From positions 1 to 37,237 of the forward strand of contig CAJWRJ010000015.1 of the NCBI GenBank assembly GCA_913046215.1: a stretch of 37,237 nucleotides of DNA. Direction: 5' to 3'. Shown here one piece after another: positions 27,100 through 30,351 of the stretch; the stretch's first letter is position 1; every line of letters starts with the position of its first letter. The position numbers and the translations under genes are program-made. The notes beneath the pieces are model-generated. The model did not search any database, was not told the DNA's origin, and was given only the letters and a program-made list of their open reading frames with translations. This DNA comes from an uncultured Legionellales bacterium. Its GTDB lineage: Bacteria; Pseudomonadota; Gammaproteobacteria; Eutrophobiales; Eutrophobiaceae.

Positions 27100-28122
27100 T
27101 TAATTTAAATTATTAATAACTAGGCGCGTGTAATCTTTTGTGGTTGCATCTCCCCCTAAATCACACGTTCTATTTTTTTTGTTTTCAAGTGTTTTTCTTA
27201 CAGCATTTATCAAAGTATTTGCCATTTTATTTTCATTGATATGTTCTAGCATCATTGCAGATGCTAGATAAAGCGCTGTTGGATTTGCAATTCCCTTTCC
27301 AGCAATATCAGGAGCTGTTCCATGAACTGCTTCAAAAATTGCTACTTCATCACCAATATTCCCCCCAGGTGCAAGACCTAATCCACCAACTAATCCAGCA
27401 ATTTCATCAGAAAGGATATCTCCAAACATATTTGTTGTTAGTATAATATTAAATTGTGATGGATTAATTACTAACTGCATTGCTGTGTTATCAACAATTC
27501 GTTCTTCAATTTCTAATTTATTTCCATATTCTTTACCAACTTCCATGGCAGTTTCTAGGAAAAGTCCTGTAAGTGCCTTGAGGATATTAGCTTTATGAAC
27601 AATTGTAATTTTTTTTCTACCAGTCTTAATTGCATAATCAAAGGTAAATTTTGCTATGCGACGACAACCACTTCTTGTGATTATTCCGGACGCCTCGGCG
27701 ACTGCTTTTGGGTCATTATCAATCGGTATAAAATGTTCAACACCAACATACAATCCCTCAGTATTTTCTCGTATTAAAACTAAGTCTATTTTGTCAGTTT
27801 TTCTTCTGTTATGAAGAAATGATATTGCAGGCCTAACATTAGCATATAATTTAAATTCTTCTCTAAGTCTGACATTAGCCGAACGAAAACCTTCCCCAAT
27901 AGGTGTTTCAAGAGGAGCCTTGAGCGCAAGTTTTGTTTTACGAATATTGTCCAGTAAATCTTGAGGTAACGGGTCCTTGTTTTTATTATATGCAGACATT
28001 CCAGCTTCAAATCTGTGCCAATCAAAATTCGTGCCGAGTGCAGTTAGAACCTCTACTGCTGAGTCTAGGATTTCAGGACCTATTCCATCACCCTCAATGA
28101 GTGTTATAGGTGTTTTTTTAAT
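27100..28122 (-). CDS. NAD-type isocitrate dehydrogenase, probable ATT start
   Basis: Beta-decarboxylating dehydrogenase converting isocitrate to 2-oxoglutarate in the TCA cycle. The isocitrate motif SANVRLR (Ser81, Asn83, Arg87) followed by NVRP sets it apart from isopropylmalate dehydrogenase, and HGTAPDIAGKGIANP favours NAD over NADP. The first ATG in frame (28001-27999) would cut off the essential N-terminal strand. The frame is open further upstream and encodes KKTPITLIEGDGIGPEIL, the expected family start. No ATG, GTG or TTG exists there; an ATT at 28122 lies 8 nt after AAGGA. From ATT the protein has 340 residues, the normal size. The frame is the same as that of prc, separated by its TAA. 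Confidence 0.85.
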   Translation of the reverse strand: MKKTPITLIEGDGIGPEILDSAVEVLTALGTNFDWHRFEAGMSAYNKNKDPLPQDLLDNIRKTKLALKAPLETPIGEGFRSANVRLREEFKLYANVRPAISFLHNRRKTDKIDLVLIRENTEGLYVGVEHFIPIDNDPKAVAEASGIITRSGCRRIAKFTFDYAIKTGRKKITIVHKANILKALTGLFLETAMEVGKEYGNKLEIEERIVDNTAMQLVINPSQFNIILTTNMFGDILSDEIAGLVGGLGLAPGGNIGDEVAIFEAVHGTAPDIAGKGIANPTALYLASAMMLEHINENKMANTLINAVRKTLENKKNRTCDLGGDATTKDYTRLVINNLN

Positions 28123-28146: not shown

Positions 28147-30213
28147 TTATTTGTAGACCGTTCTAATTTCGGAAGGCACAATTAAATCATTTAATATTTC
28201 AGCAGCTTCATTGAGCAAAATATCAAGCGGCTCATCATCAGAAGTCTCGGAAATATTATCTAAGTCAGTTAAAGGGGCTAGTCCTTTTTCCTGTCGCATC
28301 ATATTTTCTAAATTTATCTTTGCCTCTTCATTTTTCTCTCTTTCGATAATTCGGTCTTTTTCTAACAAAGAAATTTCTTTTTTTAGATCATTTTTCTGAT
28401 TTTGGTTGATATTATCCAACATTGCTTGAAATAACCTATCTTCTTTAATTCTATTTAGATGTTTAATTTTTGCTGTTTCAAATATTTCAGTTGGCGCACT
28501 TGTTGGTTGATATTTTGCAGGCCTTACTTCATCCCATGGCAATGCATTTTCATATGAACGTTCACCTATATTGTTACTTTGATTTTCAATTTCAGGAATT
28601 TTAATATCCGGAACGACACCTTTGTATTGATTGCTACTACCACTTATACGAAAAAATTGTGCAATTGTTGTTTTTAATCTACCATAATCATCATCATTGC
28701 CTTCATCAATGAATCTATTTAAATCAATAACATTTTGAACTGTTCCTTTTCCGAATGTTGTTTCGCCAATAATTATTCCTCTACGATAATCTTGTATTGC
28801 TCCTGCAAAAATTTCTGAAGCCGACGCGCTCTCCCTATCGACTAAGACCGCAAGAGGGCCTGGATAGACAATTCCTGCATTTGGATCATAATTAATTTCA
28901 ACTTTACCAGTTGCATCTTTTGTTTGAACAATCGGCCCTTCGTCTATAAAGAATCCAGTAAGTTTAAGTGCTTCAGACAATGAACCACCACCATTACCTC
29001 TTAGATCAATGATTAACCCATTGATCTTTTCATCCATAAGCGACGCTATTAATTTTTTAACATCACGAGATGTGCTTTTATAATCAGCTTTGCCTTCGGC
29101 TTGTGCAGCAAAGTCTATATAAAAAGTTGGAAGTTCAATAACACCAATTCGCATCCCAGTGCCATTTATATCAATAATGCTTGAACTTGCTGCTTGTTCC
29201 TCTAATTTAATTTTATCACGCGTCAAGCTTATAAATTTTGATGGACCTTCTGGACCGACGCCTTTAGATAGTACCTCAAGCTTCAATACAGAGTTTTTTG
29301 GCCCCCGAATAAGATCTACAACATCATCTAGTCGCCACCCAATCACATCAACCATTTCTTCACTATCTTCTTGTTTTACACCTATAACACGATCATCTGG
29401 AGCCAATCTTCCATCGATATCAGCTGGACCACCTGTAATAATTCTTACGACCTGCGTATATTCGCCTTCTGAGCGTAACACTGCTCCGATTCCTTCAAGA
29501 GATAGCTTCATGCTTATATCAAAGTTTTCTGAAATTCTAGGAGAAAAATAAGAGGTATGAGGTTCAACTGCTGTTGTAAAAGCATTAATGAAGGTTTGAA
29601 AAATATCATTAGAGTCTAGTTGTAATGTAGTAGATAAGATTCGATTATAACGATTAGAGAGTGTCTCTTTTATATCATCATCACTTTTACCAGCTAATTT
29701 TAAGTTTAAAACATCATTCTTAACTCTTTTACGCCATAACTCATCTAGTATAATTTTGTCATCCATCCAATTATCATCTCGACGGTCAAAACGAAATGAT
29801 TCATCAATATTAAAATCAAAATCGTAATTAATCACTTCAAGTGCAAAATTGATTCGTTCTTCAACTCTTTGTCGATATATTTTAAAAATTTCAAACGCTA
29901 CAGATAAATCTAATTTTTTAATGGCATCATCTAGAGAATACTTAAAAGTATTAAATTCTTTTATATCAGAATTAATGAAATATGCTCTGTTTTGATCTAG
30001 ATTTTCTAGATAATTTTTTAATATGTCACTTGATAACTCATCATTTATATTGGTTTTTTTATAGTGGTATGTTGTTAAAATATGCGTAATTAACTCAGTT
30101 GCTCTAATATGTTTTTCTAATATCTCTAATTCTGCGACAGGCACATACCGCACAGTCGCATTTCCGCTGAAAAGCGTTAATAGTAAAAAAAGAAATACCG
30201 TTATATGTTTAAT
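28147..30213 (-). CDS. prc: Tail-specific protease Prc, probable ATT start
   Basis: Periplasmic S41-family protease that degrades proteins with non-polar C-termini and trims envelope enzymes. It has an N-terminal Tsp domain (about 25-220), a PDZ domain (about 230-320) and the protease domain with SASASE (about 462-467) and the catalytic Lys in TFGKGT (about 489), as in E. coli Prc. The first usual start, GTG at 30153, gives no signal peptide. The open frame upstream encodes KHITVFLFLLLTLFSGNA, a good signal peptide, beginning at ATT (30213), with AGGA 8 nt upstream and no ATG, GTG or TTG back to the TAA stop. From ATT the protein has 688 residues. Confidence 0.88.
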   Translation of the reverse strand: MKHITVFLFLLLTLFSGNATVRYVPVAELEILEKHIRATELITHILTTYHYKKTNINDELSSDILKNYLENLDQNRAYFINSDIKEFNTFKYSLDDAIKKLDLSVAFEIFKIYRQRVEERINFALEVINYDFDFNIDESFRFDRRDDNWMDDKIILDELWRKRVKNDVLNLKLAGKSDDDIKETLSNRYNRILSTTLQLDSNDIFQTFINAFTTAVEPHTSYFSPRISENFDISMKLSLEGIGAVLRSEGEYTQVVRIITGGPADIDGRLAPDDRVIGVKQEDSEEMVDVIGWRLDDVVDLIRGPKNSVLKLEVLSKGVGPEGPSKFISLTRDKIKLEEQAASSSIIDINGTGMRIGVIELPTFYIDFAAQAEGKADYKSTSRDVKKLIASLMDEKINGLIIDLRGNGGGSLSEALKLTGFFIDEGPIVQTKDATGKVEINYDPNAGIVYPGPLAVLVDRESASASEIFAGAIQDYRRGIIIGETTFGKGTVQNVIDLNRFIDEGNDDDYGRLKTTIAQFFRISGSSNQYKGVVPDIKIPEIENQSNNIGERSYENALPWDEVRPAKYQPTSAPTEIFETAKIKHLNRIKEDRLFQAMLDNINQNQKNDLKKEISLLEKDRIIEREKNEEAKINLENMMRQEKGLAPLTDLDNISETSDDEPLDILLNEAAEILNDLIVPSEIRTVYK

Positions 30214-30351
30214 TTTGACCTTCCTAAATTTTCTTTAAATATTTTCTTCTAAGTGTATGTTTTATATATCTATTAGTCCATTAAACTTCTAGTTTTTATA
30301 TATAAAAACCAATATTTTTTATAAAATTACTTTGATTATCAAAGAAACCCT

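Follow-up and report, generated by a model that had tools for sequence, protein, structure and literature searches.

IF3 discriminates against AUU, two positions of which pair with the anticodon of the initiator tRNA, and an ATT start is usual for infC. IF3-discriminated starts are already known in a handful of genes: infC, pcnB, sigR and ccpN. AUU starts were described for infC and pcnB (PMC9410913), and pcnB is translationally limited by its AUU according to work cited in the same paper. In Streptomyces, sigR begins with a GTC start that is repressed by IF3 (PMC5472188). In Staphylococcus aureus, conserved AUU and AUA starts are combined with strong Shine-Dalgarno (SD) sequences and yield about 10% of the AUG output (poor medium; PMC13009471). 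Weak third-position pairs with the initiator anticodon are excluded (PMC10158994).

Here, a window of 37,237 nt (contig CAJWRJ010000015.1 of assembly GCA_913046215.1) from an uncultured Legionellales bacterium of the family Eutrophobiaceae was analysed. It carries prc and, next to it at a distance of about 24 nt, icd (Table 1). The best reading of the prc locus, with a probability of roughly three in four, is that translation would initiate at ATT 30213. The original prediction had proposed this start upstream of GTG 30153 and behind AGGAAGG, and the coordinates of all three elements as well as the 8 nt spacer between AGGA and ATT proved to be right on the minus strand.

Table 1. Features of the prc and icd loci; positions refer to the window.
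Feature	Position	Strand	Description	Basis
prc	28147..30213	-	tail-specific protease Prc/Tsp, S41; 688 aa precursor from the proposed ATT	NCBIfam, Pfam
Predicted signal peptide	30157..30213	-	(M)KHITVFLFLLLTLFSGNA, cleavage predicted after GNA	by eye, shuffle test
Proposed prc start codon	30211..30213	-	ATT, non-canonical	codon reading; aligned to CTT of congeners
SD of prc	30219..30225	-	AGGAAGG; missing from prc of congeners	duplex energy -7.1 kcal/mol
GTC	30217..30219	-	place of the ATG of congeners	alignment with three congeners
GTG	30151..30153	-	first usual start in the prc frame; conserved Val, mature N terminus; probably no start	alignment with congeners
icd	27100..28122	-	NAD-type isocitrate dehydrogenase; ATT start at 28122 under ATAAGGAA	NCBIfam PRK08997 (best match), Pfam Iso_dh

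Downstream of an in-frame TAA, the prc frame on the minus strand reads AGA AAA TTT AGG AAG GTC AAA ATT(30213) AAA CAT ATA ACG GTA TTT CTT ... GGA AAT GCG ACT GTG(30153). Codon-by-codon reading agrees with the earlier statement that ATG, GTG and TTG are absent between this stop and GTG 30153. The SD upstream of ATT is among the stronger sites sampled in the genome: The median energy of 246 sampled genes with an ATG start is -2.4 kcal/mol, and 8.5% of them reach -7.1 kcal/mol. An energy of -7 is reached at about 1.3% of positions drawn at random from the window. Weak starts tend to be paired with stronger SD sequences (PMC5622118), and prc fits this tendency. ATT 30213 is the only near-cognate codon suitably spaced from the strong SD in the prc leader. 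Both ATA 30204 and ACG 30201 are too distant from it, and a start at ATA would remove the sole lysine from the signal peptide; GTC 30219 is too near. The proposal that ATT is the one well-placed codon therefore appears well supported. With about 138 nt between prc and the gene upstream of it, coupling of the two was rejected.

The protein itself has the full Prc/Tsp set. It matches the NCBIfam profile PRK11186 (1.3e-205) and, above the cut-off, TIGR00225, and the Pfam domains TSP_NTD, PDZ, Peptidase_S41 and the C-terminal DUF3340 all exceed the gathering score. The 20 codons ahead of GTG 30153 encode the signal peptide. Translation from ATT 30213 gives the N terminus (M)KHITVFLFLLLTLFSGNA-TVRYVP, in which a basic beginning is followed by a hydrophobic core and a cleavage site of small residues. 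The signal peptide was judged by eye and with a dinucleotide shuffle test. When the 60 nt stretch was shuffled, 34% of the shuffles remained open, 0.2% were equally hydrophobic, and only 0.015% additionally showed a basic residue close to the beginning and a small one at the cleavage position. Prc would carry this export signal only if translation began at or near ATT 30213. A start at GTG 30153 would mean a cytosolic Prc in this species, which we consider very unlikely. This GTG is the first usual start and has a weak SD-like CGGAA (-3.5) 8 nt upstream, but it corresponds to a conserved Val of mature Prc, for which the congeners have GTG or GTT inside ATG-started frames. Moreover, the upstream frame still holds an intact signal peptide homologous to that of the congeners, the strong SD at ATT would be left unexplained, and the E. 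coli Prc protease is periplasmic (PMC7481392).

Three congeners carry prc with 74-76% identity, and in all three the homologous signal peptide begins at ATG. This homology and the shuffle test, which places the peptide beyond chance, bear out the claim that the upstream open frame encodes a signal peptide. DNA alignment locates the ATG of the congeners on or beside GTC 30219, and ATT 30213 aligns with their CTT codon, which is codon 3 in two of them. This means that the ancestral prc start was lost and apparently moved two codons inward. The start sites of the congeners lack a clear SD (energies -2.8, -0.9 and +0.4). In 29 other prc loci of the family, congeners included, whose start codons were taken by reading codon lists, the start ahead of the signal peptide is ATG (25) or TTG (4). 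By these comparisons, the ATT switch in prc is private to one species. A comparison of the codon in related genomes had been proposed as a check, and its outcome is divided: The homologous signal peptide starting from ATG in congeners upholds the N terminus, but ATT itself is not conserved in the relatives. Such conservation, as seen in infC, sigR and ccpN, would be supportive only. Two marks of a rare start are found together in prc: a homologous N terminus without a usual start and a strong SD at a proper distance.

Since GTC 30219 occupies the start position of the congeners, whose prc likewise has no clear SD, initiation might have stayed there, as at the GTC of Streptomyces sigR, which demonstrates that this codon is usable (PMC5472188). 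We regard this as quite unlikely. AGGA is only 2 nt away from GTC and the pairing available upstream is -1.8; in addition, GUC has two mismatches to the initiator anticodon and AUU has one, and a start at GTC would leave the new strong SD unexplained. A sequencing or assembly error that conceals a usual prc start is unlikely, too. ATT is one base away from ATG and well spaced from the SD, the assembly is a draft, and searches for another sequence of the species were unsuccessful: Genome contigs gave one distant match and viral contigs none. However, the ATG of the congeners is not at the position of ATT, so that the sequence is not accounted for by a plain reading error in an inherited start; an error would need to strike a start that had already moved. 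Furthermore, an SD this strong is expected in just the above 8.5% of ATG genes here, and the remainder of the prc frame is intact.

We propose that AUU 30213 is read by the ordinary initiator fMet-tRNA, guided by the strong SD AGGAAGG, and that the resulting Prc precursor would carry a normal Sec signal peptide. AUU, together with a newly formed SD, would have replaced the lost ancestral AUG, located two codons farther upstream. AUU starts are, as a rule, weak, and IF3 discriminates against them; synthesis of Prc is therefore probably slowed, an effect for which the strong SD may partly compensate. Initiation of the ribosome at this ATT, the lowered rate and the role of IF3 are what we infer from the sequence. 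What speaks against the ATT start is the following: It is unconserved in relatives, it is known from a single draft assembly, and its prior is low, as one AUG-to-AUU switch was found among 61,358 ancestral AUG starts surveyed (PMC5622118). A survey based on annotated starts would miss cases like prc.

To place prc in its genomic context, about 837 kb of the genome (40 stretches and the window) were set against some 800 kb from a congener, and gene pairs with an alignment of 100 aa or more were evaluated. Among 299 pairs, a few of which may be non-coding shadow frames, the usual start is missing at the homologous place only for prc, icd and recX; rare starts with a usual codon within about 5 codons downstream escape this test. 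With 3 exceptions in 299 pairs, a general loss of start rules was rejected: The genome follows normal start rules with few exceptions. An altered rule, e.g. a second initiator tRNA reading AUU, would account for several unusual starts within one lineage, but it is extremely improbable, as unusual starts are rare and the assembly yielded a single initiator-type anticodon stem-loop. It belongs to an ordinary initiator tRNA with anticodon CAT. A search of the assembly for an altered initiator tRNA found none, which largely refutes this reading. The IF3 gene matches its own family over the full length. As in E. coli, infC of this genome starts with ATT, here under GGAGGA (locus L194). In relatives, infC starts with ATT, ATC or ATA. 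The start of recX is CTG in 28 of 30 family loci; the other two have an ATG and a CTA with ATG nearby. The recX CTG often follows shortly after an AG-rich, SD-like stretch (recX at L151 1076-1516, plus strand; family loci L198-L227).

The "also" of the original prediction is right, too: The neighbouring icd likewise begins at ATT. Across the family, its start, unlike that of prc, stays with ATT (22), ATC (3) or ATA (3) in all 28 genomes that carry the orthologue. Among the 27 of 28 loci that were scored, the SD energies lie between -5.6 and -9.2; one locus, missed by the motif of the script, was read by eye. About half of the genomes have a stop in frame 4-8 codons upstream of the icd start, leaving little room for another start. 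A usual in-frame start lies farther upstream in 3 of 28 genomes, as an alternative. An unusual start together with a strong SD is, hence, conserved across the lineage. Outside the family, 20 icd orthologues from a class-wide search were read, and 19 begin with ATG. The other has ATC at the same place (G191:C3:54800-55060) and belongs to a lineage that forms a family of its own. This suggests that the rare start either has an earlier origin or appeared on two occasions. The rare icd start would, then, belong to the family and perhaps to one further lineage. Coupling between prc and icd was rejected as a cause of the icd ATT, since the short spacing found here is larger in relatives and, consequently, not general. 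Through its AUU, AUC or AUA start, icd probably keeps isocitrate dehydrogenase at a low level that is sensitive to IF3. By analogy with the S. aureus starts and sigR, synthesis of both Prc and isocitrate dehydrogenase in this species would be slowed and would respond to IF3. Of the two, the conserved icd start is the more substantial finding, and prc alone is a modest new example. Among open-licence papers, no report of such starts was found for bacterial icd or recX, nor for prc.

Starts of the AUU type are easily missed by gene finders: In the present case, Prc would be predicted without its export signal and isocitrate dehydrogenase without its first 41 residues. With prc, a fresh start-codon switch accompanied by an apparently compensating SD stands beside icd, a central metabolic gene and a case conserved throughout the family. 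With this pairing, it can be tested whether rare starts persist because IF3 regulates them or just because they keep expression low. Tentatively, and with more doubt than confidence, we suggest that the family runs infC, icd and recX, joined by prc in this species, on IF3-discriminated starts, so that the level of free IF3 might co-regulate central carbon flux, the control of recombination and a protease of the periplasm, and that the AUU-type start of icd may have been kept during the whole history of the family.

Among the known systems, E. coli infC and pcnB resemble prc in that an AUU start and a good SD are found in an otherwise ordinary gene. They differ in that the ATT of prc is private to one species and that E. 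coli infC is autoregulated by IF3. Streptomyces sigR is similar to icd and recX: A rare start is conserved within a lineage and was missed by annotation, and sigR has a strong ribosome binding site. However, codon and gene are different, and the IF3 dependence was measured for sigR, whereas for icd and recX it is deduced. For icd, a gene of the TCA cycle, the nearest parallel is the S. aureus set, which comprises ccpN (AUA), cvfC1 (AUU) and citZ (AUA), with rare starts, extended SD sequences and, in some cases, conservation (PMC13009471). Two of these genes act in central metabolism. The set differs from the present one in that it belongs to Firmicutes, concerns other genes and is backed by ribosome profiling and reporters.
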